A stretch of 64,000 nt of DNA from a bacterium (GTDB lineage Bacteria; Sysuimicrobiota; Sysuimicrobiia; Sysuimicrobiales; Segetimicrobiaceae): assembly GCA_035691305.1 (NCBI GenBank), contig DASSJF010000069.1, positions 1-64,000 on the forward strand, given 5' to 3'. Below, piece by piece: positions 14,909 to 28,492 of the stretch; within the stretch, counting starts at the first letter, position 1; each line of letters begins with the position of its first letter. The position numbers and the translations under genes were made by a program. The notes beneath the pieces were generated by a model. It worked only from the letters and a program-made list of their open reading frames with translations. It had not been told where the DNA came from and made no database searches.

Positions 14909-15856
14909 ATGTTGCACGTCATGCCCGCCGCGTCCGACGTCCGCGCCGGCGCGCCGTCCCACGGCCGGGGCCAAAGCGGCAGCGCGCGGCGCAGACACGA
15001 AATCCGCGTGGCCTACTGGCTGCTCGCGCCCGCGACGGTCCTCGTCCTCGGCGTCCTCGCCTATCCCCTGGCGTGGGAGATCTGGACGAGCCTCACCGAT
15101 TCGTTCGTCGGCAACTCGACCACCACGTTCGTCGGGCTGGCCAACTACGTCGAACTGGTCCGCGATCCGGCATTCTGGCGCGGCGCGGCGAACGCGATTG
15201 GGTATCTCGTGATTACGACAGTGCTGAAGCTTGCCGTCGGCGTCGGGGCGGCGCTGCTTCTGGCGCGCCCGTCCCGGATGCGGCCGCTCGCGTTCCTCGC
15301 GGCGTTTCTGCCCTGGGCCTATCCGTCCGGCCTCGCACTCGTGGGATGGTATTGGTTCATGATCCCGCCGCTTCACACGGTGTACTCGGCCGCGATGTCG
15401 GACGCCCGCTACTGGTTCGACGGCATCTTCGGCGACGGCACGTGGCGGTTTTCGACGCTCATCGTCTTCAACGCGTGGCGCGGCGGCTCGTTCGTCGGCG
15501 TCTTCCTGCTCGCGGCGCTCAACGGCATCCCCCAGGATCTCTTCGACTACGCGTCGCTCGAGGTCAAGAGCGGATGGCGGCGGTTCTGGTACGTTACGGT
15601 GCCGATCCTGCGGCCGTTTTTGGCGTTGGCGGCGTTCCTCGCCATCGTCAGCGCGGTGAGTGATCTCGGCAACGTCTATATGCTCTCGGGACTTCGGATT
15701 ACCTATTCGGTGACGTGGACGGAGGCGTTCCAGCTCGCGATCATCGGCGGGCTGTGGGGCAAAGCCGCCGCGGAGGCGCTCATCCTCCTGCCCGTCCTCG
15801 GCGCCATTCTGTACCTCTGCTACCGTCTGTTCGAACCGCTCGAGGAGCTCGCGTGA
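14909..15856 (+). CDS. ABC transporter permease, carbohydrate type (MalF/UgpA-like)
   Basis: 315 residues with about six TM helices and the cytoplasmic EAA loop seen as DLFDYASLEVKSGWRRFW, then YVTVPILRP. It is the first half of a membrane channel for a CUT1-type importer. ATG 14909 follows GACCGAGGCG; ATG 14921 is an alternative and the open frame further upstream is not protein-like. Its partner starts inside its stop codon (GTGA). No binding protein or ATPase gene accompanies the pair. Confidence 0.88.
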   Translation: MLHVMPAASDVRAGAPSHGRGQSGSARRRHEIRVAYWLLAPATVLVLGVLAYPLAWEIWTSLTDSFVGNSTTTFVGLANYVELVRDPAFWRGAANAIGYLVITTVLKLAVGVGAALLLARPSRMRPLAFLAAFLPWAYPSGLALVGWYWFMIPPLHTVYSAAMSDARYWFDGIFGDGTWRFSTLIVFNAWRGGSFVGVFLLAALNGIPQDLFDYASLEVKSGWRRFWYVTVPILRPFLALAAFLAIVSAVSDLGNVYMLSGLRITYSVTWTEAFQLAIIGGLWGKAAAEALILLPVLGAILYLCYRLFEPLEELA

Positions 15857-16728
15857 AGACCGCGATTCGCCGGCGCGTCTCGAGCGGCATGCACGTCGTG
15901 CTGCTCCTGCTACTCGCCGCCTACAGCATCTTCCCGATCTACATGATGACGATCGAATCGTTGAAGACGGTCGAGGAGGACGTCTACGGCAGCCCGTTCA
16001 TCGTCCGGCATCCCACGACGGAATGGTACGAGGGCCTGTTTGAAGAGCAGGGCTGGCTGTCGCATAAGGGCACCGTGATGACCAAGGTCGTGCCGTTCAT
16101 GGTATGGGCGAAGAACACCGGCATCGCGTTTGCCTGGGCGCTCGCGCTGATCCTCGGCACGAGCCTCGCGGCGGGCTACGCGCTCGGCCGGCTGCGGCCG
16201 CCCGGATGGCGCGCCTGGCGGCGCCTCCTGCTGGCGACGTTTCTCGTGCCGCAGACGATCCTGTTTCTGCCCCTCTACCAGCTCGTCTACCACGCGCGTC
16301 TGGACGACAATTTAGGCGCCCTCGTGCTGACGTATCCGATGCTGACCGTACCGTTCTGCGTGTGGTTGTTCTCGGCGTACTTTCAGAAACTATCGCCGGA
16401 CATCGAAGACTCCGCCTACATCGAGGGCGCGAGCCGCCTCACCGCGTTTTTTCGCATCGTCCTACCGATGAGCTGGCCCGTCGCCGTGGCCTGCGGCCTC
16501 TTCGCGCTCGGCGTGATCAGCAGCGACTTCATGCTCGCGGGCGTCTTCCTGCCGAACACATGGCATCAGACGATCGCCGTGGGCCTCGCAACGATGGACG
16601 TCAGCCTGGAGGATCTGACCGTCGTCTCCGGCGTCAGCCTCGGGGGCCTGCCGGTCCTGCTCGTCGCCGCGGCCCTCGCCACGACGTATGTACGCGGCCT
16701 CACCGCCGCGATGCTCGAAGGCGCCTGA
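15853..16728 (+). CDS. ABC transporter permease, carbohydrate type (MalG/UgpE-like)
   Basis: 291 residues with six TM helices and the EAA loop IEDSAYIEGASRLTAFFR, then IVLPMSWP. The GTG start at 15853 overlaps the stop of the previous permease by 4 bp, so the two should be made in equal amounts. An unusual periplasmic insertion (about residues 45-80, with a Trp/Glu/Lys-rich stretch) follows TM1. The downstream gene starts 14 bp later. Confidence 0.88.
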   Translation: MKTAIRRRVSSGMHVVLLLLLAAYSIFPIYMMTIESLKTVEEDVYGSPFIVRHPTTEWYEGLFEEQGWLSHKGTVMTKVVPFMVWAKNTGIAFAWALALILGTSLAAGYALGRLRPPGWRAWRRLLLATFLVPQTILFLPLYQLVYHARLDDNLGALVLTYPMLTVPFCVWLFSAYFQKLSPDIEDSAYIEGASRLTAFFRIVLPMSWPVAVACGLFALGVISSDFMLAGVFLPNTWHQTIAVGLATMDVSLEDLTVVSGVSLGGLPVLLVAAALATTYVRGLTAAMLEGA

Positions 16729-16742
16729 ACATCGCGGCCGTC

Positions 16743-17468
16743 ATGAGCCGTCCGCGGCGGATCGGCATGATCACGCCCTCATCCAACACGGTCGTCGAGC
16801 CGCTGACGGCGCGGATGCTCGAGCCGCTCGGCGACGCCGTCTCGCTGCACTTCACGCGGATCCGGGTGACGCGGATCGCCCTCGACGCGGGCTCGCTCGG
16901 ACAGTTCGACGACGCGCCCATGGTGGAGGCCGCGCGCCTGCTGGCCGACGCGGGCATGGACGTGATCGCCTGGAACGGCACCTCGGGGTCGTGGAAGGGG
17001 CTCGACGCCGACCGCGCGCTCGTCCGGCGGCTCGAAGCGGAAACGGGGGTCCCCGCCACGACGTCGACCCTCGACCTCCTGGAAGCCTGCCGGGCGCTCG
17101 GCATCACGCGGTGCGGCCTCGCCACGCCGTATCTAGCGGAGATCCACGAGGCGATCCGGCGCGTCTACACCGCGGCCGGCCTCGAGGTCGTGGCGTCCGC
17201 CTGCCTCGGGGTCACGGTCAACAAAGAGTTTGCCGAGGTGCCGCGGCCGCGGGTGGCCGCGCTGCTGCGCGCGGTCGCCGTCCCGGACGCGGAGGGAATC
17301 GTGACGGTCTGCACCAACTTCGCCGCGGCGGCGGTGATCGACGAAGTGGAACGCGAGACCCGCCGGCCGGTCGTCGACTCGCTCGCCGCGACGGCGTGGC
17401 GGACGCTCCGGCTGGCCGGGATTCGCGCGCCGCTGCCGGGCTTCGGACGGTTGTTCGTCCTCGACTGA
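16743..17468 (+). CDS. Asp/Glu racemase-superfamily enzyme with one catalytic Cys (arylmalonate decarboxylase/maleate isomerase-like)
   Basis: 241 residues. The N-terminus RIGMITPSSNTVVEP is typical of the maleate isomerase/arylmalonate decarboxylase branch. Racemases and isomerases use two cysteines, one per half. Here the first-half position reads AWNGTSGSW (Gly in place of Cys), while the second-half Cys is present in TVCTNFAAA. Bordetella arylmalonate decarboxylase likewise has Gly and a single Cys, so a malonate-type decarboxylase or C-C lyase is more likely than a racemase (inference). It sits 14 bp after the permease pair and convergent to the dehydrogenase/amidohydrolase operon. Confidence 0.82.
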   Translation: MSRPRRIGMITPSSNTVVEPLTARMLEPLGDAVSLHFTRIRVTRIALDAGSLGQFDDAPMVEAARLLADAGMDVIAWNGTSGSWKGLDADRALVRRLEAETGVPATTSTLDLLEACRALGITRCGLATPYLAEIHEAIRRVYTAAGLEVVASACLGVTVNKEFAEVPRPRVAALLRAVAVPDAEGIVTVCTNFAAAAVIDEVERETRRPVVDSLAATAWRTLRLAGIRAPLPGFGRLFVLD

Positions 17469-17506
17469 GGACCCGCCCCGGGAACCGGCGGCGGGGGCCG
17501 TCCGTC

Positions 17507-18352
17507 TCAGACCCGGTCTCGCGCGGCGCCCGCCAACTCGCGTGTGAGACCAAGGATCAACTGCGACGCGAGGCCGAGCATCGGCGCCGGCACACCCGCC
17601 TCGCGCGCGGTTTGCAACGCCAGGCCGGTGTCCTTGACCAGGATATCGAGCGACGTCCCGCGCGGGTAAGTCTCGAGCCACTCGCGGGCCACCGGCCAGT
17701 GCTCGACGACCCAGGTCGTGCCGGTGCAGGTGCGGAGGACGTTCCACACGGCTTCGGCACGCATCCCCGCGACGCCGGTCAGGTTCGCCATCTCGCGGGC
17801 GGCGAGGAGGCTGACGGTGAGCAGCACTTGGTTGGCCATCTTCACGGTCGTGCCCGCGCCCGCCTCGCCGACGTGCTCGATCTGCGTCCCCATCGCCGCG
17901 AGCACCGGACGGGCGGCCTCGACATCGGCGGCGACGCCGCCGACGATGATGGTCAGCGTCCCGTCCTCGGCCCTGGCCCGGCCGCCGCTGACGGGGGCAT
18001 CGAGGAAGCGAAATCCGCGGCGTGACGCCGCGTCGGCGAGACGGCGCACGCACGGCACCCCGACGGTACTCATGACGGTGAGCAGCGTCCCGGCCCTCGC
18101 GCGTGCGAGGACGCCGACCTCGCCGAACATCACGGACTCCGCCTGCGCCGGCGTTCTGACCATAATGATCGTCGCGTCGGCCGACGCCGCCGCGTCACCC
18201 GCGGACGCCGCCGCCTGACCGCCCGCCTCCGCCAGCCGCCCGACGGCCTCGGCCCGCACGTCGTACCCGGCGACGCGAAAGCCGGCGCCGAGGAGCCGGC
18301 GCGCCATGGGCAGCCCCATCTCGCCGAGCCCGATCATCGCTACGGTCGTCAC
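17507..18352 (-). CDS. NAD(P)-dependent beta-hydroxyacid dehydrogenase (3-hydroxyisobutyrate/tartronate-semialdehyde family)
   Basis: 281 residues. Rossmann motif GLGEMGLPMARRLL at the start, the substrate loop DAPVSGGRARAEDGTL, and the catalytic region GAGTTVKMANQ with the conserved Lys and Asn. Members reduce or oxidise 3-hydroxy acids such as 3-hydroxyisobutyrate, tartronate semialdehyde or succinic semialdehyde; the exact substrate cannot be read from sequence. It is the last gene of the importer-amidohydrolase operon; its ATG overlaps the amidohydrolase stop by 4 bp (ATGA). Confidence 0.9.
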   Translation of the reverse strand: MTTVAMIGLGEMGLPMARRLLGAGFRVAGYDVRAEAVGRLAEAGGQAAASAGDAAASADATIIMVRTPAQAESVMFGEVGVLARARAGTLLTVMSTVGVPCVRRLADAASRRGFRFLDAPVSGGRARAEDGTLTIIVGGVAADVEAARPVLAAMGTQIEHVGEAGAGTTVKMANQVLLTVSLLAAREMANLTGVAGMRAEAVWNVLRTCTGTTWVVEHWPVAREWLETYPRGTSLDILVKDTGLALQTAREAGVPAPMLGLASQLILGLTRELAGAARDRV

Positions 18353-19536
18353 GTCGGGGTCACCTCCCCCGCGGGCCGCGTGCCCGCGTGATACACGATT
18401 CGTCCATCGCGCACAACCATCCGCACCCGTCCCAGCGCACGGACGTCGGCGAGCGGATCACCTTCGACCGCGATGACGTCGGCGACCTTGCCGGGCTCAA
18501 GCGTCCCCAGGCGGTCGCCGGCGCCGAGCGCGGCCGCCGGCCAGGCGGTCGCCGCCCGAATCGCCCGCATCGGCGTCTCGCCCAACGTAACCGCCCAGAC
18601 GGCCTCGTCCGCCAACCGGCCGTGCACCGCGTCTGTCCCGAGCACGTAGCGCAGCCGCCGCGCGATGACCTTGCGGGCGGTCTCGCACGCGTCACGGCCG
18701 AGGCGCTCGAGCCGCGCGCGCTCCTCGGTCACGTCTCCGAACGCGTGCGCGTGCGGACCGCACAAGACGCCGAGGGTAAGCGTGATCAACGTGCCGCTCC
18801 GGGCGATCAGATCCAAGTCCGCGTCCGTGAGAAACCATCCGTGCTCGAGGACGTCGAGCCCGCCGCCGATCGCAGTCGCGACACCGGCCCCGCCGAGGAG
18901 GTGGGCGGCCACCGGCCGGCCGGCGGCGTGGGCGCGCCGCGCCGCGGCGGCCACGTGGGCTTCGCCGTAGTAGCACGTGGTGGGTTCTTGCGCCGGGTCC
19001 CCCACGCCGTCGGAAACGAACAATTTCACGAGGTCGACGCCCTCGGCGAGGTTCCGCTCTACCGCCCGGCCGATCTCCTCGGGATCGTCCGTGGTTACCG
19101 AGACGACGGCGCCGCCGCCCCCGCGGGACGACTTGATCGCCCGCCCGGCCACAAAGAGCCGCGGCCCGACGACCCGGCCCGCCTCGATTTGGGCGCGGAG
19201 CCGGAGGTCCAGTCCCCCGATGTCCCCGCACAGCCGCGCCGTTGTCACGCCCGCGCGCAGGTCGTCTTGAAGGCGGCCGACGGCCTCGCCCGCGGCGACG
19301 GGTCCCGGCGCGTGGGCCTGCCCGCGAAGATCGCCGCGGCGGGTGTCGATGCCGGCGTGCGTGTGGAAGTCCACGAGGCCGGGCAAGAGCGTGCAGCCCG
19401 GCAGCGACACGTCAAACTCCCCCGGGCCGGCGGCGTCCGGCGGCGCGACGCGGCCGTTCGTGATGCACAGGCGCCCCGGACGATGCGCGCCTTCCGCGAC
19501 GCCGTCGATCAGCCCGTCCGCCTCGAGCCGGAGCAC
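18349..19536 (-). CDS. Metal-dependent amidohydrolase (imidazolonepropionase-like)
   Basis: 395 residues. Ligands of the amidohydrolase barrel are visible in order: HTH in GLVDFHTHAG, Lys in LVKLFVSDG (carboxylated Lys position), His in AAHLLGG, His in LEHGWF and Asp in LGTDAVHG. N- and C-terminal beta-sandwich strands flank the barrel (LPGCTLLPG; PGKVADVIAVEGDPLADV). It hydrolyses an amide or cyclic amide, probably of the compound imported by the two permeases and binding protein directly upstream (7-bp gap). The stop overlaps the dehydrogenase start. Confidence 0.88.
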   Translation of the reverse strand: MLRLEADGLIDGVAEGAHRPGRLCITNGRVAPPDAAGPGEFDVSLPGCTLLPGLVDFHTHAGIDTRRGDLRGQAHAPGPVAAGEAVGRLQDDLRAGVTTARLCGDIGGLDLRLRAQIEAGRVVGPRLFVAGRAIKSSRGGGGAVVSVTTDDPEEIGRAVERNLAEGVDLVKLFVSDGVGDPAQEPTTCYYGEAHVAAAARRAHAAGRPVAAHLLGGAGVATAIGGGLDVLEHGWFLTDADLDLIARSGTLITLTLGVLCGPHAHAFGDVTEERARLERLGRDACETARKVIARRLRYVLGTDAVHGRLADEAVWAVTLGETPMRAIRAATAWPAAALGAGDRLGTLEPGKVADVIAVEGDPLADVRALGRVRMVVRDGRIVYHAGTRPAGEVTPT

Positions 19537-19543
19537 CGGGGAC

Positions 19544-20443
19544 CTACTTGACGGCGGCGCTGGTGATCCCTGAGATGAACTGGTCCAGGAAGAAACTGTA
19601 GAGGATCGCCACCGGGACGCCGACGATCAGCGCGCCGGCCATGAGCGACCCCCAGAAATACACGTCGCCGCGGATGAGGTCGCTGGCAACCCCGAGCGGC
19701 ACCGGCTTCTGGTCCGACACCGAGACGAAGACCAGCGAATACAAGAAGTCCTGCATCGTAAGCGTGAACGCGAAGATTACGGCGGTCAGGATCCCGGCGA
19801 GGCTTACGGGAAGCACCGTCCGGATCAGGGCGCCGAGCCGCCCGCACCCGTCCACGAGCGCCGCCTCCTCGATCTCCCGGGGCACGGTCTTGAAGAAGCC
19901 GGAGAGCAGCCAGGTGCAGTACGGGACCGTGAACGTCGGATACACGAGTACGAGCGCCCACTTCGTGTCGATCAGGTGGGTCATCGCGACGACCCGCGAG
20001 AGCGGTATGAACAGCAGGATCGGCGGGATCAGGTAACCGAGGAAGATCGCGATGCCCATGTTCTCGGCGCCGGGCAGCCCGAGCCGCGCGAGCGAGTACC
20101 CGGCCGGCACCCCGACCAGCAGGGTGATCAGCGAAACCGACGCCGCGATCTCGATCGTATTCGTGATCCAGTACCCGTAGTACGTATGCTGGAAGAGGTA
20201 CGTGAAGTGCTCCCACGTGGGCGGCTGGTGGAACCACAGCGGGAACACGGTCGGGTTGACCAGATCCGCGTCCGTCTTGAACGCGGTGATCGCCATCCAG
20301 AACACCGGGAAGACCGCGATCAGGAAAAACGGCAGGAAGCCGAGGTAAATCAGCAGTTGCCGGCGGAGCTCCCGCGCCCGTGCCCGCCGCTCCTGCAGAT
20401 CCGCCGCGGGGGCGCGGTCTCCCAGCACGCCGACGCTGCTCAC
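19544..20443 (-). CDS. ABC transporter permease, carbohydrate type (UgpE/MalG-like)
   Basis: 299 residues, six TM helices. The EAA loop is EIEEAALVDGCGRLGALIR, then TVLPVSLAG. GTG 20443 overlaps the stop of the partner permease (GTGA). The open frame continues upstream but is only the antisense-like shadow of that partner. It forms the import channel with the gene upstream and is served by the binding protein at 21451-22794. Confidence 0.9.
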   Translation of the reverse strand: MSSVGVLGDRAPAADLQERRARARELRRQLLIYLGFLPFFLIAVFPVFWMAITAFKTDADLVNPTVFPLWFHQPPTWEHFTYLFQHTYYGYWITNTIEIAASVSLITLLVGVPAGYSLARLGLPGAENMGIAIFLGYLIPPILLFIPLSRVVAMTHLIDTKWALVLVYPTFTVPYCTWLLSGFFKTVPREIEEAALVDGCGRLGALIRTVLPVSLAGILTAVIFAFTLTMQDFLYSLVFVSVSDQKPVPLGVASDLIRGDVYFWGSLMAGALIVGVPVAILYSFFLDQFISGITSAAVK

Positions 20444-21354
20444 AGCGCCTCGCGTCTCCGGAGGTTGCGCAGCAGCAGATAGACGACCGGCAGCAGGATC
20501 GGGAACAATACGAGGGAGATCGCGGCGCCGCGGCCGAGCGCGCCGGCCTGGATGCCGATCTCGAACGCCTTCGTCGGCAGGATCTCCGTCGAGCCCATCG
20601 GCCCGCCGAACGTCAGCAGGTAGACGATGCTGATGTCGGACAAGGTAAACACGGTGTCGAACAGGAGGCCGACGAAGAGGATCGGGGCGATCACCGGGAT
20701 GATGATGAAGCGGTACCGCGTGAGAAACGTCGCCCCGTCCACCTTCGCGGCGTCGAGCAGCTCGACCGGCACCGCGGACATCCCGGCCATCAGCACGATC
20801 GCCGCGAACGGAAACCCCCGCCAGACGTTGACCGAGATCACGGCCGCCATCGCGAGCCCCGGCTCGCCGAGCCAGTTCGGCCATCCTTGGATCAGGTGCA
20901 ACCGGGTCCCGACGTAGTTGATCGCGCTGAACTGCGGGTCGTACATCCACTTCCAGGCAAGCGCGCTGATCGCGACCGGCAACGTCCAGGGGATGACGAC
21001 GAGCGACCGGATCAACTTCTTCCCGCGCACTTCCTGGACCAGCAGAAACGCCATCAGGGTGCCGAGGATGATCTTGAAGATTCCCGCGACGACCGTGAAC
21101 ACGATCGAATTCCGGAGGGCCTGCCGGAACGACCCGTCGTTGAAAATCGCGACGAAGTTCGCCAGGCCGACGTAGCTCGCGACCTGGTTGCCGACGGTCG
21201 CGTCGCTCAACGCGAGGTACAGCGAGAAGAAGAACGGGATCCCGACGAGCAGCACCATGTAAAGAACCGCCGGCGCGAGGAGCGAATAGCCGAACACCAG
21301 GCGCTCTCGCGTAAACGCACGACGGCGGGCGGTCGGGTGTCCGCCCCCCAGCAA
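20440..21354 (-). CDS. ABC transporter permease, carbohydrate type (UgpA/MalF-like)
   Basis: 304 residues, six TM helices, with the EAA loop ELLDAAKVDGATFLTRYRF, then IIIPVIAP. A hairpin at 21410-21437 separates it from the binding-protein gene, the usual arrangement for making more binding protein than channel. No ATPase of the MsmX/UgpC type is encoded in this window, so the importer probably borrows one from elsewhere. Confidence 0.9.
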   Translation of the reverse strand: MLGGGHPTARRRAFTRERLVFGYSLLAPAVLYMVLLVGIPFFFSLYLALSDATVGNQVASYVGLANFVAIFNDGSFRQALRNSIVFTVVAGIFKIILGTLMAFLLVQEVRGKKLIRSLVVIPWTLPVAISALAWKWMYDPQFSAINYVGTRLHLIQGWPNWLGEPGLAMAAVISVNVWRGFPFAAIVLMAGMSAVPVELLDAAKVDGATFLTRYRFIIIPVIAPILFVGLLFDTVFTLSDISIVYLLTFGGPMGSTEILPTKAFEIGIQAGALGRGAAISLVLFPILLPVVYLLLRNLRRREAL

Positions 21355-21409
21355 CTCGACGTCGGCTACGCGCGGCTGCGCCGTGATCGGGTGACCTCGC
21401 CGGAGGAAT

Positions 21410-21437
21410 CCCGGGGGAGCCTCAACGGCCCCCCGGG
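21410..21437 (-). terminator. Hairpin between binding-protein and permease genes
   Basis: CCCGGGGG-A-GCC pairs with GGCCCCCCGGG across the loop TCAAC, about 13 bp after the binding-protein stop on the minus strand. It probably protects the upstream mRNA or causes partial termination. Confidence 0.6.
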
Positions 21438-21450
21438 ACGCGCTAACGGC

Positions 21451-22794
21451 CTACTTGTACTTCGCGTAGATACCCTTAATTTGCCCCAGACCCCACTTGA
21501 TCGAACTCTCCAGGCTCTCCCCGTGGCAGTATCGCGCCAGCATATCCGGAACGACGAAGGTCGAGAGCACCTCGGACGCCGGCGCCGTGGCGGGCCCGGG
21601 GTAACCGAACACCAGCGCGATCTTGTCCCAGTCCTGAATCAGCTCCAGCTTGGGCAGGTGCGCGCCGAGGCCGGGCATCGGCTTCGCGTACCACTTCTTG
21701 AGGTACGGCATGTTGTAGCCCTTGCTGGCCGAGAGCGAGAACTTCACGTCCGCGCCGTAGGCCTCGAGGAACGCCTTCGCCGCGGCCTGGTTCTTCGAGA
21801 ACTTCCAGACGCCGAGGATCGTCGGGTCGACGACCGCGGCGCTGCGGACGGAGCCCTTCGGTTCGCCGCCCGGCACGCCGGCGTTGATGTTGCCGAACAG
21901 CGTCGGGTTGCTCGTCTCCACCGAGAAGAGCGACGAGAGCGCGTCGTGGATGTAGATTGCGACGCCGGAGTCGAGGTACCGGTTGTCCGAGACGTTGTCC
22001 CAGGAGAACACTTCGGAGGTCATGCCGTCCGACCAGAGCGCCTTGCTGAACTGCATCGCGTCGCGGAGCGCCTTCGAGTCCCACGCCAGTTCCTTGCCGG
22101 ACGGGTCGGTTTCGTGCACGCCGAAGGCGTAGAACACCGCCCGCCAGTTGTGGTTGGAGTCGTTGCAGTGAGAGATCGCGAATCCCGCCGGATGGCCCTT
22201 CGACTTGCCGATCCGCGCCGCCGTGCGCAGATTCTCCCACGTGCTCGGCGCCGGACAATTGTACTGCTGCCACAGATCGGCGCGCCACATCATCGGCTGC
22301 GGAATGTAGAACTCCGGCATCGCGTACCACTGGCCGTTGACGACGCAGCAGTTCTTCGCCATCGAGATCCAGCCGCCCCCGTCCTGGCCGAGCTTGTTGC
22401 AGATGTCCGAGACGTCGACCATGTTCTTGTAGTAGAGGGTCGTCTGAATCTGGCCGTTCATCTGAAAGATGTCGTGGCCGGCGCCGGCGGCCAGTTCGGA
22501 CGCGATCCGGGCGGGCAACTGGTCGATCGGAATGTGGTCCACGCGGACGGTGACCGCGTTCGCGACACCCCAATCGTTGGCGTACTTGTCGAACGCGGTG
22601 TCGTACGCGGGCACGAAGTGGCTCCAGGTCAAGATCCGAAGGGACGATCCGCGGATCTGAGCCGGCGCGGCACCCGCTTTCCACGGTGCGACAAGACGCG
22701 ATGCCCCCGCCCCGGCGAGACCCGCCCCGGCCGCCGTCAGCAGCCGCCGACGGGTCAGGGTCCGAGCAAACTGCTTCACTGCACGTTTCGCCAT
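21451..22794 (-). CDS. ABC transporter substrate-binding protein, family 1, Tat-type signal
   Basis: 447 residues. The N-terminus has a twin-arginine-like signal (TRRRLLTAAGAGLAGAG), so it is probably exported folded by Tat. The mature part has the two-lobe family-1 (MalE/UgpB-like) pattern: LRILTWSHFVPAYDTAFDKY at the start and the hinge-region GGWISMAKN. It should bring a sugar or sugar-like ligand to the two permeases downstream. ATG 22794 was chosen for the G-rich SD AGGGGGTGTGGGG; an upstream in-frame start gives no signal peptide at the terminus. Confidence 0.92.
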   Translation of the reverse strand: MAKRAVKQFARTLTRRRLLTAAGAGLAGAGASRLVAPWKAGAAPAQIRGSSLRILTWSHFVPAYDTAFDKYANDWGVANAVTVRVDHIPIDQLPARIASELAAGAGHDIFQMNGQIQTTLYYKNMVDVSDICNKLGQDGGGWISMAKNCCVVNGQWYAMPEFYIPQPMMWRADLWQQYNCPAPSTWENLRTAARIGKSKGHPAGFAISHCNDSNHNWRAVFYAFGVHETDPSGKELAWDSKALRDAMQFSKALWSDGMTSEVFSWDNVSDNRYLDSGVAIYIHDALSSLFSVETSNPTLFGNINAGVPGGEPKGSVRSAAVVDPTILGVWKFSKNQAAAKAFLEAYGADVKFSLSASKGYNMPYLKKWYAKPMPGLGAHLPKLELIQDWDKIALVFGYPGPATAPASEVLSTFVVPDMLARYCHGESLESSIKWGLGQIKGIYAKYK

Positions 22795-23036: not shown

Positions 23037-23897
23037 TCACTCGGCCCAGCGGCCGAGACGCCGGGCCTGGGTGACGATCGCCTGAGTATACGGGTGCTGC
23101 GGAGAGGCGAACAGCGTGCGGGTCTCGGCCGATTCGACGATCCGGCCGCCGCGCATGACGTGGACGAGATCGGCCGTCTGCGCGACGACCCCAAGGTCGT
23201 GGGTGATGAGCAGGAGCGCCATTCCCAGGTCGCGCTGAAGGCGCGCGAGGAGATCCAGGATCTGCGCCTGGACCGTGACGTCGAGCGCCGCGGTCGGCTC
23301 GTCGGCGATCAGGAGGTCCGGGCCGGGCGCGACCGCGCCGGCGATCAACACCCGCTGGCGCTGGCCGCCCGACAACTCGTGCGGATACCGCCGGAAAAAC
23401 GTCCCGTCGAGGCCGACACGCGTCAGCGCCTCGACGGCCCGTTCCCGCGCGCCGCGCCGGCCGAGGTGGGCGACGATGCCCTCCATGACCTGGTCGCCGG
23501 CGGTCATGAGCGGGTCGAGCGCGGCCCCGGGCTCCTGGAAGATCATGGCGACGCGGCGTCCCCGGACCGCGGTCAGTTCGCGCTCCGACATCGCGGTAAG
23601 GTCGAGCCCGTCGAGCAGAATCCGGCCCGCCGTAATGCGGGCCGGCACCGGGAACAGCTTCAAGACGGCATAGGCGGTCATCGACTTGCCCGCCCCGGAG
23701 GCGCCGACGAGGGCGGCCGTGCGCCCCGCCGGAACCACGAGGGAGACGTCCTCGAGAATCGGCAGCAGGCCGGGCGCGCGTCCCGCCCCCGGTTGCGGAG
23801 CGCGCTCGAGCGCGACGCTCAGGCCGTCGACGCGCAGCTCCCCGCGTGGAGCCGGCGGCCGATCTGGCGCCGCGCCGGACGCGGCAGGGGTGGGCAC
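23037..23897 (-). CDS. Orphan ABC ATPase, oligopeptide/nickel type (DppD/OppD-like)
   Basis: 286 residues. Walker A GASGAGKS, Q-loop IFQEPGAALDPL, signature LSGGQRQR, Walker B LLIADEPTAALD and the H-loop LLITHDLG. FQEPGAALDP and the C-terminal HPYTQAIV are typical of the Opp/Dpp ATPases. It is shorter than the usual 320-330 residues and has no OppF partner, permease or binding protein nearby. It begins 13 bp after the RND pump gene, so it appears to be the last gene of the MerR-MFP-RND operon. Its partner membrane protein is unknown. Confidence 0.88.
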   Translation of the reverse strand: MPTPAASGAAPDRPPAPRGELRVDGLSVALERAPQPGAGRAPGLLPILEDVSLVVPAGRTAALVGASGAGKSMTAYAVLKLFPVPARITAGRILLDGLDLTAMSERELTAVRGRRVAMIFQEPGAALDPLMTAGDQVMEGIVAHLGRRGARERAVEALTRVGLDGTFFRRYPHELSGGQRQRVLIAGAVAPGPDLLIADEPTAALDVTVQAQILDLLARLQRDLGMALLLITHDLGVVAQTADLVHVMRGGRIVESAETRTLFASPQHPYTQAIVTQARRLGRWAE

Positions 23898-23910
23898 CGG
23901 GGCCGCGGTG

Positions 23911-26900
23911 CTACGCTTCGGTGCGCCGGCGTCGCGGCAGCAGGCGCTCGAAGAACACGTACAGGACCGGGATCAGCAGCAACGTGAGCCCGGTGCTGAC
24001 CGTCAGGCCGCCGATCACCGCGCGCGCGAGCGGCATGTTGGTCTCGCTGCCCTCGCCGAGGCCGGTGGCCATCGGAATCATGCCGAGGATCGTCGCGATG
24101 GCCGTCATCAGAATAGGACGCAGCCGGATGCGGCCCGCCTGCAGCACGGCCTCGTGGGCCGGCATCCCCTGCTCCTGCATCTTGTTGGCGTAGTCGACGA
24201 GCAGGATGCCGTTGCTTACGACGACGCCGATCATCGTGATGACGCCCATGAAGGAGATGATGGACAGTGTCGTATGCGTGAGCAAGAGCATCCAGATCAC
24301 GCCGATGAACCCCAGCGGAACGGCGAACATGATGATGAACGGATCCACGAGCGACATGAACTGGCTCGCCATGATCATGTAGACGAGCATCAGCGCGAGC
24401 AGCAGCGCGAAGCCGAGGCTCGAGAAGGCGCCCTGCTGCTGCTCGGTCTGGCCCGCCATGTGGTAGGTAAAGCCTTCGGGGAACGAGGTGCGGTCGAGCG
24501 CGCGAATGACGTCCTGGGACACCGCGCCGAGCGGCCGGTTGATGACGTTGGCGGTCACGTCGATGACGCGCTGCTCGTTCTTCCGGCTGATCTGCAGCGG
24601 CTGGCTGCCGAGGGTGATCCGGGCGACGTCGCGCAGCAGGATCGGCACCATCGGCTGCGTCGTGCCCGCCGGCGTGGGCGCGCCCGCGGGGGGATCGGCG
24701 AGCACGTTGAGCGGGACGCCGCCGAGGTCCTCCGGATGCGACCGGTGGGCGTCCTGCAGCCGCACGACGATGTTGTACTCGTTGCCGGTGACCGGATCGA
24801 TGAACTGGCTCGCCGTGGCGACGTTGCCGGCCATCGCGGTGTTGACGGCGCTGGCGATGTCCGCCGAGGAGAGCCCGAGCTGCGCGGCCTTCTCCTGGTC
24901 GATGTTGACGTTGAAGTTCGGGTACTGTCCGCGCGGCGTGATCTGGACGTCCGCGGTCCCCTCGATACCGGAGACCATCGCGGCCACCTGCTGCGCCAAC
25001 TGCGCGCCGGCCTGCTGATTGTATCCGATGAGCTGGATGTCGATCGGCGCCCTCGCCCCCACGTTGACGATGCGGTGTTCGAGCCCGCCCACGTCGAGGA
25101 ACATCAGCACGCCGGGGAACTTGCCGTTGAGCGCCGCGCGGACCGCGTTGGCCCACTCCGTCGAGGAGTGGCGCCGCCGCGTCGGCGGCACGAGCCGGAT
25201 CTCGACGCTGCCGTAGTTCGGACCGGCGTTCGAACCGAACCCCCCGGGGTTGGCGCCGGTATTTGTGTAGATCGCCAGGACATCTTTCGCCGGCACCGTC
25301 CGGCGGACGACGTCGGCGATCTGCTCGACGATGTTGGACGCCGTCTGGACCGCGGTGCCCTGCGGCACCTGCGCGTCCACCGAGAACTGACTCTCGTCCG
25401 TATCGGGGAAGAATTCGCTGCCGATGCCCCGGGCCGCCACGAGGGAAACCAGGAAGACCAGCGCGATGCCGGCCACAACGGGACCGGCGTGGACCAGCGT
25501 CCACCTGAGCGCCCGCTGATACCGCTCGTCCAGGCCGTCCATGATCCCCTCGCTCCACCGCACGAAGCGCGCCGCGGCGCCCTGCCCCTGAGGACCGGCC
25601 GTGTTCGCGCGGAGGAACCTAATGCTGAGGATCGGGTCCATCGTCATCGAGACGACGTAGGAGGCGGACAGCGCAAACACGATCGTCAGCGCCATCGGCA
25701 CGAACAGCCGCTGCGAGATGCCGCTCAAGAACACCACCGGGAAGAACACGGCGATCGTCGTCGCGGTGGACGCCAGCACGGGAAGGCCCACTTCCTGGGT
25801 GGCCGTCAGCACCGCCTGCAGCACCGGCGTCCCGGGTTTCGATAAATGCCGGGTGATGTTCTCCCGAACGACGATGGCGTCGTCGACCAACCGGCCCATC
25901 GCGAGGGTGAGGCCGCCGAGCGTGAAGATATTGAGCCCCTGCCCCGTGAAGTACAACAGCAGCAGCGCCGTCGCGACCGACAGCGGAATGCCGACGCCGA
26001 TGATCACGAGACTCCAGAGGCTGCGCAGGAAGACCAGCACCACGAGGAAGGTCAGGAAGGCGCCGATGAGGGCCTCGCGCTCCAGCGTTGCGATCGCCGC
26101 CCGGATGTACTGCGACTGATCGAAGCCGACCTGCAGCGTCACCCCCCGCGGGATGCCCGACAGATGCGGCAGCGCCTTCCGCAGCTCGTCGACCACCTGG
26201 ATCGTGTTGGCGTCCGGTTCGCGCAGCACGAACATGGTGACGCCGGGCTTGCCGTTGATCCGCACGATCTGCGCCTGGTCCGCCGCCGCGTCCTGCACCT
26301 GCGCGACGTCTCCGACGTGGATCGGAACGCCGTTGCGTGTCGCGAGGACGACGTTCCGGATCGCCGGCACGCTCTGCACCAGGCTGGGAACGTTGAGCTG
26401 ATAGTCGATGCGGTTATTCCGGAGGTCGCCGGACGGAATGAGGGCGTTGTACTTCGAGATCCCGGTGATGACATTCTGCAGCGTCATCCCGGTCGCGACC
26501 AGCCGGGTGGGGTCCACGTTGACGTTGAGCTGGCGGACGAGCCCGCCGTTCACAAACGCCTGCGACACGCCGGGGAGGCGCTCCAGTTGCGGCTCGATCG
26601 TGTTGTAGCCAAGGTCGTACAGCTGGCGCGCGTCGAGGCCGCCGCCGCCGACCACGACCTGCGCGACCGGGATGTTGGAGATGTCGAATTTCACGACGAA
26701 CGGCTGGGTGACGCCCGGCGGCAGGGTGCGCATCACGCGCTGAACGTTCTGAATGACCTCGACTTCGGCGTTGTTGAGATCCGTGCCCCAGTCAAACCAC
26801 ACCTGGATGTTGGTCGTGCCCGTCCGCGTCGTCGAAAGCATCTGCTGGACGCCGGCGACGCGCGTCATGGCCTGTTCGAGCGGATACGTGACGGTCCGCT

Positions 26901-27078
26901 CCATCGTCTCCGGGCTCGCCCCGCTGTACTGGGCGGAGACGGAGATAACGGGAACGGTGATCTTCGGGAACAGGTCGCGCGGGAGGCGCTGCAGGGCGAT
27001 GGTGCTCAGCACCACGACCGCGATGCAGACCATGAAGATCGCGATCGGATTCTTGGTGGCCGCGCGGGTTAGAAACAT
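23911..27078 (-). CDS. RND multidrug efflux transporter (AcrB/SwrC-like, HAE1 type)
   Basis: 1055 residues, full length. N-terminal TM1 with NPIAIFMVCIAVV, two large periplasmic loops, and TM4 GRLVDDAIVVREN with the paired Asp of the proton relay. The TM10 stretch VVSNGILLVDYANK has Ser-Asn where AcrB has Lys-Asn; this resembles the Bacillus SwrC branch rather than AcrB. It exports hydrophobic compounds at the expense of the proton gradient together with the membrane-fusion protein upstream (76-bp gap). A strong SD (GAGGAGAAGGGAG) precedes ATG 27078. No outer-membrane channel gene is nearby. Confidence 0.95.
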   Translation of the reverse strand: MFLTRAATKNPIAIFMVCIAVVVLSTIALQRLPRDLFPKITVPVISVSAQYSGASPETMERTVTYPLEQAMTRVAGVQQMLSTTRTGTTNIQVWFDWGTDLNNAEVEVIQNVQRVMRTLPPGVTQPFVVKFDISNIPVAQVVVGGGGLDARQLYDLGYNTIEPQLERLPGVSQAFVNGGLVRQLNVNVDPTRLVATGMTLQNVITGISKYNALIPSGDLRNNRIDYQLNVPSLVQSVPAIRNVVLATRNGVPIHVGDVAQVQDAAADQAQIVRINGKPGVTMFVLREPDANTIQVVDELRKALPHLSGIPRGVTLQVGFDQSQYIRAAIATLEREALIGAFLTFLVVLVFLRSLWSLVIIGVGIPLSVATALLLLYFTGQGLNIFTLGGLTLAMGRLVDDAIVVRENITRHLSKPGTPVLQAVLTATQEVGLPVLASTATTIAVFFPVVFLSGISQRLFVPMALTIVFALSASYVVSMTMDPILSIRFLRANTAGPQGQGAAARFVRWSEGIMDGLDERYQRALRWTLVHAGPVVAGIALVFLVSLVAARGIGSEFFPDTDESQFSVDAQVPQGTAVQTASNIVEQIADVVRRTVPAKDVLAIYTNTGANPGGFGSNAGPNYGSVEIRLVPPTRRRHSSTEWANAVRAALNGKFPGVLMFLDVGGLEHRIVNVGARAPIDIQLIGYNQQAGAQLAQQVAAMVSGIEGTADVQITPRGQYPNFNVNIDQEKAAQLGLSSADIASAVNTAMAGNVATASQFIDPVTGNEYNIVVRLQDAHRSHPEDLGGVPLNVLADPPAGAPTPAGTTQPMVPILLRDVARITLGSQPLQISRKNEQRVIDVTANVINRPLGAVSQDVIRALDRTSFPEGFTYHMAGQTEQQQGAFSSLGFALLLALMLVYMIMASQFMSLVDPFIIMFAVPLGFIGVIWMLLLTHTTLSIISFMGVITMIGVVVSNGILLVDYANKMQEQGMPAHEAVLQAGRIRLRPILMTAIATILGMIPMATGLGEGSETNMPLARAVIGGLTVSTGLTLLLIPVLYVFFERLLPRRRRTEA

Positions 27079-27154
27079 CGCGCTCCCTTCTCCTCGGCCA
27101 CCGCCGTCGATATCATGGCAGCCGGCGAGGCGGCCGTAAGGCGGTCCGCCGGCA

Positions 27155-28492
27155 TCAGGGCGCCCCCGCGGACGGCGCGGCGGTGCGCACCGGCTGGTTC
27201 TGCCGGACGAGATCGGCGCCGCGGACGATCAGCGTGTCCGTCGTCTCCAAACCGCCGATGATCTCGATGACTTCTCCGGTCGCTTGTCCCACGTTGACGT
27301 ACTGCTGCACGGACTTGCCGCTCTCGACGAGCCAGACCCAGTGCTGGGAACCGGAGGACTGCACCGCCGACAGCGGCACGACGAGTGCCGGCCGCGAGCC
27401 GGCCGACAGCTGCGCCGTCGCGTACATCCCCGGGCGCAGCAGGTGCTGCGGGTTATCGATGTCGACCTCGACCTGCACCGTTCGGGTCACCGGATCGACG
27501 CCGCCGGCGATCCGGCTGATCGCGCCCGGAAAGACCCGGCCCGGATAGGCGTCGATCAGGATGTTCACCGCGTCGCCCTTGCGAATCATCGGAAGGTCCG
27601 GCGATCCGACGTTTACCACGACGTCGAGATGGTCGAGGTCCGCGATGGTGAGAATGGACGTCGACGTGCCGGGGGTCACGTAGGAGCCGGGATCGAGCTG
27701 CCGGCTGACGACCACGCCGGAGAACGGCGCCGTGATCGTGGCGTACTGCAGCTGCACGCGCGCGTTCTCGAGCGCCGCGGCGGCGTTGTTCGCGAGCGCC
27801 TGCTGCGTCTTGACCTGCGACGCCGCGGCGGCCTCTTGCTGGCGCGCCGCGTCGACCTGCGCCCGAGCCTGTCCCACCTGCGCCCGCGAGGCGTCGAGCG
27901 TCGCCTGGGCCGTCACCACCTGCGCCTTGGCGTCGTCGAGGTTCTGCTGGGCGATCGCGCCCTGTTTGGCCAGCGCGTCGGTGCGGTTGTAGGTCGCCTG
28001 CATGTTCGCGAGCGACGCCTCCGCCTTGACCACCGCCGCGTTCGCGCTCGCGACGCCGGCCTCGGCGTTGACCCGCTGCGCCCGCGCCGCCGCCAGCTGC
28101 GCCTGCGACGTCTGTACCGCGGTTTCGGCGGCGGTCAGCGAGGCCTGGGCCTGTGCGACCTGGGCGTCGAGCTGCGCGTGGTCGATCAACGCCAGCACCT
28201 GGCCCTGCCTTACCGGGTCGCCGGGCCGCACCGTCACGGCCAGTAGATACCCGGACGTTTTCGGGAAAATCACCGACTGCGTAAGGGACGTGATGCTCGC
28301 CGTCAGCTGCAGCGTCCGCGCGAGGGACCGGCGCTGTGCGTGACCGGTCACGACGAGCGGCGCCTGCCGCCGGCTTCCGCCGCTCTGTGCGGCCGGGGGG
28401 GTTGGCTTGAGTGTCGCCCCGCGGCTGACCACGAGGCCGGCCGCGAGCACGATCGCCGCGACGACCACCCAGATCCAGACCGTTCGCTTCAC
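27155..28492 (-). CDS. Membrane-fusion protein of RND efflux system (HlyD/AcrA family)
   Basis: 445 residues. An N-terminal membrane anchor (WIWVVVAAIVLAAGLVV), the lipoyl half-motifs (GYLLAVTVRPGDPVRQGQVLALID, and APFSGVVVSRQLDPGSYV) around a long Ala/Gln-rich coiled coil of about 150 residues, then beta-barrel and membrane-proximal domains. It links the inner-membrane pump to the envelope. The GTG start overlaps the merR stop (GTGA). It has no lipobox, so it is anchored by the N-terminal helix. Confidence 0.93.
   Translation of the reverse strand: MKRTVWIWVVVAAIVLAAGLVVSRGATLKPTPPAAQSGGSRRQAPLVVTGHAQRRSLARTLQLTASITSLTQSVIFPKTSGYLLAVTVRPGDPVRQGQVLALIDHAQLDAQVAQAQASLTAAETAVQTSQAQLAAARAQRVNAEAGVASANAAVVKAEASLANMQATYNRTDALAKQGAIAQQNLDDAKAQVVTAQATLDASRAQVGQARAQVDAARQQEAAAASQVKTQQALANNAAAALENARVQLQYATITAPFSGVVVSRQLDPGSYVTPGTSTSILTIADLDHLDVVVNVGSPDLPMIRKGDAVNILIDAYPGRVFPGAISRIAGGVDPVTRTVQVEVDIDNPQHLLRPGMYATAQLSAGSRPALVVPLSAVQSSGSQHWVWLVESGKSVQQYVNVGQATGEVIEIIGGLETTDTLIVRGADLVRQNQPVRTAAPSAGAP

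Follow-up and report, generated by a model that had tools for sequence, protein, structure and literature searches.

Multitask ATPases of the MsmX type, MsmX in Bacillus subtilis and MsmK in Streptococcus pneumoniae, are the closest described counterpart (PMC7658222, in extract) of the ATP-binding cassette (ABC) importer system reported here. We analyzed a 64,000-nucleotide stretch (the window; GenBank assembly GCA_035691305.1, contig DASSJF010000069.1, positions 1 to 64,000) of a soil bacterium of the family Segetimicrobiaceae in the phylum Sysuimicrobiota, in which two permease pairs of the CUT1 type, P1 (P1a-P1b) and P2 (P2a-P2b), and one extracellular solute-binding protein (SBP) are encoded at positions 14909-22794. 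As in the MsmX and MsmK systems, an orphan MalK-type ATPase gene lies at a separate locus, and many CUT1 importers have no ATPase gene. The orphan ATPase matches MsmX over its full length (435 bits, PDB match) and, among the multitask signature residues D77, R104, E110 and K154 given in an extract of PMC8603345, the first three are identical. Unlike MsmX and MsmK, it belongs to Sysuimicrobiota, has Q in place of K154 and is encoded beside a gene for a phosphoglucose isomerase (PGI) C-terminal domain and near a GH57 gene, and its sharing among importers is a prediction.

Other described systems resemble the locus in part. UspABC of Mycobacterium tuberculosis is also a CUT1 importer without an ATPase gene of its own, for which borrowing has been proposed (PMC8603345, in extract), but it has a binding protein, UspC, whereas none is encoded beside P1. 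The P1a profile aligns over nearly the whole length of SugA from the LpqY-SugABC trehalose importer (E 1e-36), the closest solved A-type permease; in contrast to that importer, P1a lacks the glycine of the EAA motif, and P1 has neither its own SBP nor its own ATPase gene in Segetimicrobiaceae. The maltose importer MalFGK2-E (PMC3150292, in extract) likewise combines two permeases, a MalK-type ATPase with an OB domain and a binding protein with the maltose-binding protein-like fold, but here the ATPase is predicted to be shared and unlinked, a second permease pair is present and the coupling helix of one subunit is altered. In searches of an open-access library, we found no description of this cluster by title or abstract, and those on the conserved glycine of the EAA loop and on Segetimicrobium gave no papers; a term search of the main text of the phylum-describing paper (PMC11604079) gave no mention of ABC transporters or MsmX.

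Two permease pairs and one binding protein without an adjoining MalK-type ATPase gene

The interval contains eight genes, three on the plus and five on the minus strand. P1a (14909-15856, plus) is a CUT1 A-type, UgpA/SugA-like permease with no glycine in its EAA coupling loop, identified by PF00528, NCBIfam and alignment; its PF00528 score of 22.8 bits is slightly below the cut-off of 26.4, and its NCBIfam match is UgpA/GlcT-like. P1b (15853-16728, plus), a CUT1 B-type, MalG/GlcU-like permease, exceeds the PF00528 cut-off and has the normal EAA glycine. On the minus strand, the A-type permease P2a (20440-21354) and the B-type permease P2b (19544-20443) both carry a normal EAA motif, and the SBP (21451-22794; SBP_bac_8/SBP_bac_1) was modelled as a glycoside-binding type. 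The genes within each permease pair overlap by four bases, which points to translational coupling. P2 and the SBP together have the composition of a CUT1 importer, namely two MalF/MalG-type permeases with the EAA motif and a sugar-type SBP. P1 also consists of two MalF/MalG-type permeases, with EAA-X3-G present in P1b only. No MalK/MsmX-type ATPase gene adjoins P1, P2 or the SBP in the interval. The genes, their strands and the missing MsmX/UgpC-type ATPase were thus as an earlier sequence-only reading had described them, according to the open reading frames and profile matches.

A single stand-alone ATPase very probably serves the importers without their own

The window genome (G000) is a metagenome-assembled genome (MAG) of 87 contigs (3.58 Mb, 96.33% complete), in which the window lies on contig C69. 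Eight ATPases are found in it by PF08402 (TOBE_2) and only one by PF17912 (OB_MalK), at C82:49242-49406. This MalK/MsmX-type ATPase of 364 a.a. with an OB_MalK domain is encoded on contig C82 (48540-49631), and the 19.9 kb read around it contains neither permease nor SBP genes; each of the other seven TOBE_2 ATPases (7/7) shares an operon with permeases and a binding protein of its own. CUT1 pairs were counted with the MalG model, for which all 45 candidates were scored; the PF00528 inventory, which covered 150 of 192 candidates and ranked Opp-type permeases first, was not used for counts. The MalG model, the SBP model and the stretches read gave another 11 CUT1 pairs, all of which have an SBP and lack an operon ATPase; P1 and P2 bring the pairs without an operon ATPase to 13, against one MalK-type ATPase. 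The sole ABC ATPase in the stretches of those 11 pairs (L113:10734-11351, 205 a.a., beside a 251-a.a. gene) is about 2 kb from the importer genes, beyond another gene. A possible second binding protein was seen beside a CUT1 importer of C82 (L118:3842-5149), with a PF13416 match in one search and no Pfam hit in others.

The same arrangement was found in the relatives. In the comparison set of 12 Segetimicrobiaceae genomes (G000 and 11 relatives), every genome has an ortholog of the C82 ATPase. Nine of the 11 relatives show 83-93% identity over the full or near-full length; in G008, where the contig ends, and in G011, the ortholog is found in pieces. No CUT1 permease or SBP gene directly adjoins the ortholog in the stretches around the genes of all 11 relatives; in G005, an SBP-like gene is about 4.7 kb away. 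As in G000, only one OB_MalK ATPase is present in G002. Nine other MalK-type ATPases were read in the relatives. For eight of them, the two permeases of the same importer are encoded alongside; the ninth (L161) lies close to the end of its contig, accompanied by part of one permease gene. Across the order, 28 of the 30 best OB_MalK loci have no permease homolog within 1.5 kb. In an ATPase tree of 68 rows, built by a quick method and containing some long branches, the orphan ATPases group together (SH-aLRT 98), and their sister clade (99) consists of the ATPases of a related cluster in Rokubacteria (see below); the operon-linked ATPases of the family fall outside.

Taken together, the inventory, orthology and synteny argue strongly that one stand-alone MsmX-type ATPase serves the importers that lack an ATPase gene, as the sequence-only reading had suggested. 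This is an ordinary arrangement of a known kind, that of the multitask ATPases, here found in Sysuimicrobiota.

The gene neighborhood of the orphan ATPase is itself conserved. The gene and its orthologs (L050, L150-L160) adjoin the gene for the PGI C-terminal (SIS) domain and are near a GH57 branching enzyme gene, and this gene order holds in most relatives, which suggests a link to sugar storage.

P1 is linked to P2 and the SBP in two phyla

P1a was detected in ten of the 12 family genomes, including G000 (E < 1e-100); it was not detected in G010 and G011, whose completeness is 64% and 68%. Eight of the ten P1-bearing genomes have P1, P2 and the SBP in one contiguous block, which covers all eight testable loci; in the other two (G007 and G009), the end of the contig immediately follows P1b. 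This indicates that the arrangement is not due to chance. In G004, the SBP, P2a, P2b, P1a and P1b genes follow one another in one direction, without the enzyme genes. We found no regular SBP on the far side of P1 in the Segetimicrobiaceae stretches read and none adjoining P1, in agreement with the proposal that this first importer lacks a binding protein of its own. Two tandem P1 pairs with a single SBP were observed in G006 and G003 (L042:5018-8663 and L043:6667-10318).

Outside the family, an alignment scan of 84,980 species' genomes for P1a, which depends on one of two short patterns being matched exactly and so is not exhaustive, gave 21 loci: four from the family, 15 from Rokubacteria and two of unrelated permeases. 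We excluded L077 and L078, which are general permeases with 28% and 23% identity. Loci L058-L061 and L069 repeat contigs already in the set and were omitted from the EAA counts below; L069 represents its contig among the 15 Rokubacteria loci. In all 15, P1a is preceded by a gene for a MalK-type ATPase, which is common there to up to three permease pairs. Dedicated ATPases linked to each importer, which would have spoken against the sequence-only reading, were not found within the family, but in Rokubacteria this ATPase gene is linked to P1. In all 12 Rokubacteria loci that are long enough for a test, P2 and P1 face each other, the other three ending too early, and wherever the contig reaches, a third importer (P3 with one to three SBPx genes) lies upstream. 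Among 95 Rokubacteria genomes, P1a is present in 34, the SBP in 35 and both in 31. An SBP was found within 15 kb on the same contig in 29 of the 34 P1a places, in convergent orientation in all 29; in G198, G212, G233 and G237, P1 is at a contig end with no SBP alongside. Gene calling trimmed some starts and missed an SBP in L073, which was recovered by tblastn.

As a whole, the Rokubacteria cluster (L062-L076) combines a single MalK-type ATPase with three CUT1 pairs (P3, P1 and P2) and between two and four binding proteins. Genes for an NHL-repeat protein and a small cupin-like protein lie between P1 and P2 in L069.

P1a lacks the conserved glycine of the EAA motif

The EAA-X3-G motif is the contact between permease and ATPase (PMC3150292, in extract). 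We aligned 77 A-type permeases. In the glycine column, the 27 P1a sequences have V (9), T (7), S (6), A (3) or C (2), whereas all 50 other A-type permeases have G. The preceding residue is E in 27/27 P1a versus D in 45/50 of the others, and the following residue is K or R in 24/27 P1a versus A, C or T in 50/50. The B-type permeases, P1b included, all have G (77/77), as do 18 of 18 further A-type controls from other relatives; these are what remained of 20 control loci, of which one yielded no protein and another (L020) proved to be a P1a. The glycine is therefore replaced in 27/27 P1a but in 0/68 other A-type and 0/77 B-type permeases. One sequence labelled P2a (L049_15) is really a P3a, which leaves these totals unchanged.

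We next consider whether the substitution reflects decay. The NG86 dN/dS ratios in four genome pairs were 0.17-0.39 for P1a and 0.07-0.28 for P1b; in three genome pairs they were 0.07-0.16 for P2 and 0.10-0.36 for the SBP. Several pairs have high dS. P1a and P1b are under purifying selection. The periplasmic loops of P1 are slightly less conserved than its membrane segments, and P2 is alike in this respect. From the motif conservation, the purifying selection and the loop conservation, the change in P1a looks like an altered docking site that has been kept, rather than decay. Judged from the aligned sequences, the changed EAA contact point is kept across two bacterial phyla.

The enzymes of the interval are dispensable to the importer cluster

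The remaining genes of the interval encode a member of the arylmalonate decarboxylase/EutA/maleate isomerase superfamily (AMD; 16743-17468, plus), an NAD-binding beta-hydroxyacid dehydrogenase of the 3-hydroxyisobutyrate dehydrogenase family (17507-18352, minus) and an amidohydrolase-family enzyme resembling Xaa-Pro dipeptidase and imidazolonepropionase (18349-19536, minus). PDB and NCBIfam matches place all three at the superfamily level only. AMD scores below the NCBIfam equivalog cut-offs for both EutA (121.5 vs 318 bits) and arylmalonate decarboxylase (95.8 vs 225 bits), and from these profile scores it is assigned as a superfamily member only. Its residues C190 and G79 are kept in five orthologs; we take C190 to be the catalytic-type Cys and G79 to be the site at which two-Cys members of the superfamily have their second Cys.

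In eight contiguous family loci, AMD is present in five, the dehydrogenase in seven and the amidohydrolase in six; none of the three was found in G004 or in any of the 15 Rokubacteria loci. Since the enzymes are patchy in the family and missing from the Rokubacteria loci, we dropped them as a guide to the substrate. The three enzymes are dispensable to the importer cluster; they may act on the imported compound in Segetimicrobiaceae only. The co-occurrence that the sequence-only reading proposed to check held for P1, P2 and the SBP, whereas the enzymes accompany them in subsets only.

The structure model of the SBP (mean pLDDT 67, pTM 0.71) matches binders of beta-1,2-glucooligosaccharide, maltose, cellobiose and sulfoquinovosyl compounds, and also a dinucleotide binder, with VIA-align Z scores of up to 28.8 at 12-18% identity. 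The mean pLDDT of 67 makes the assignment of a ligand class weak, and with the low identity and the dinucleotide binder among the matches, a glycoside-like ligand is a guess at the class. The common substrate suggested earlier, a sugar-acid amide or malonate, is not supported, as the enzymes are dispensable and the SBP model falls among binders of di- and oligosaccharides or glycosides.

Compared with the window SBP, those of G002 and G001 (L047:4358-5689 and L048:12740-13900) have an identity of 0.93-0.95 in one block of 40 columns and of 0.42-0.45 in the block that follows, which suggests a segment that was swapped or evolves fast.

Discussion

We propose that P2a-P2b and the SBP would form a CUT1-type importer for a glycoside-like solute, the class being a prediction, and that P1a-P1b is a second, co-conserved permease pair. 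Both pairs, together with the 11 other CUT1 pairs, would be energised by the C82 ATPase. P1 would most likely take its solute from the SBP of P2, such that one SBP serves two permeases. P1a would dock to the ATPase through an altered coupling helix, in which E-[VASTC]-[KR] replaces D-G-A, and P1b through a normal one, so that the P1 transporter would be coupled asymmetrically; the motif is observed and its effect is predicted. Only in some members would the enzymes act on the compound taken up. We regard this account, in which P2 and the SBP form an importer, P1 is a second pair, the C82 ATPase is borrowed and the SBP is common to both pairs, as somewhat better than even. That P1 is a functional transporter appears quite probable, and its use of the SBP of P2, the least certain step, is tentative and falls a little short of probable.

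Several observations weigh against this account. In the Rokubacteria genome G225, P1 and P2 are present with no SBP in the 20 kb read. In two of the 15 Rokubacteria loci, a gene for a Peripla_BP_6 binding protein, a type different from the CUT1 SBPs, stands between the ATPase gene and P1a (L063:2287-3465 and L067:8787-10034), and several Rokubacteria loci have more than one SBP. The loss of the glycine could mean weak or absent coupling, the binding of P1 to the SBP or to the ATPase is predicted from sequence and synteny only, P1 may have an unlinked SBP, and a MAG that is 96% complete could lack a further ATPase gene.

Two alternatives concern P1 itself. P1 might have an unlinked binding protein and another solute, its place beside P2 reflecting co-regulation only. 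Surplus SBPs are possible, since the two or three SBPx genes often seen in the Rokubacteria loci are joined by a PF13416 match at C82:180060-180890 beside an importer that already has one; however, hmmscan did not confirm this match, a surplus SBP is not a recurrent neighbor of P1, and P1 adjoins P2 in every testable locus of two phyla, which makes this explanation rather unlikely. It is still less likely that P1 no longer imports and has become a sensor, an exporter-like channel or an assembly partner, with the altered helix recording the change. While the missing regular SBP and the replaced glycine in every P1a are what such a change would leave, the motif of P1b is normal, the periplasmic loops are conserved not far below the membrane segments, selection on P1 is purifying and the ATPase gene precedes P1 in Rokubacteria.

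The other two alternatives concern the motor. A dedicated ATPase absent from a MAG in 87 contigs at 96.33% completeness is conceivable but very improbable, because no family genome read has an ATPase linked to the cluster, G002 also has its single OB_MalK ATPase, and eight of the nine extra MalK-type ATPases in relatives stand beside the permeases of their own importer. We also consider it highly improbable that the OppD/DppD-type ABC ATPase at 23037-23897 (minus), just beyond the interval, is the motor of the window importers. Although its gene precedes that of the SBP on the same strand at a distance of about 240 bases, it scores as YejF/NikD/DppD rather than as MalK type, other genes separate it from the SBP in G003 and G006, and it was not found in the stretches of G004 and G008, where the importers are present. 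Moreover, it follows a gene for a resistance-nodulation-division (RND) pump in the four relatives that show both (G002, G003, G005 and G006). We rejected it as the importer motor and judged it to lie outside the importer, as it travels with the RND pump operon.

In the window, this ATPase gene, without Opp permeases, stands beside genes for an AcrB-type RND pump, an HlyD-type adaptor and a MerR regulator (23037-28492, minus). The ATPase-RND pairing recurs in the same four relatives; such a link between an ABC ATPase and an RND pump is unusual.

Returning to the proposed borrowed ATPase and common SBP, the missing-ATPase part is already known in kind, and the P1 pair is the new part. P1 could represent a new type I importer variant in Segetimicrobiaceae and Rokubacteria, docked to the shared ATPase through one normal and one rewired coupling helix, in which a single SBP supplies two permeases that differ in how strongly they are coupled, for example a fast and a tightly coupled route, but this seems doubtful. 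For the family, the puzzle of the missing ATPase is answered: the multitask ATPase arrangement would extend to Sysuimicrobiota, with the orphan gene conserved order-wide. As a natural and conserved glycine change in one subunit only, P1 offers a test case for the role of this glycine in coupling, and as a permease pair without its own binding protein, it offers a test case for one binding protein serving two permeases.

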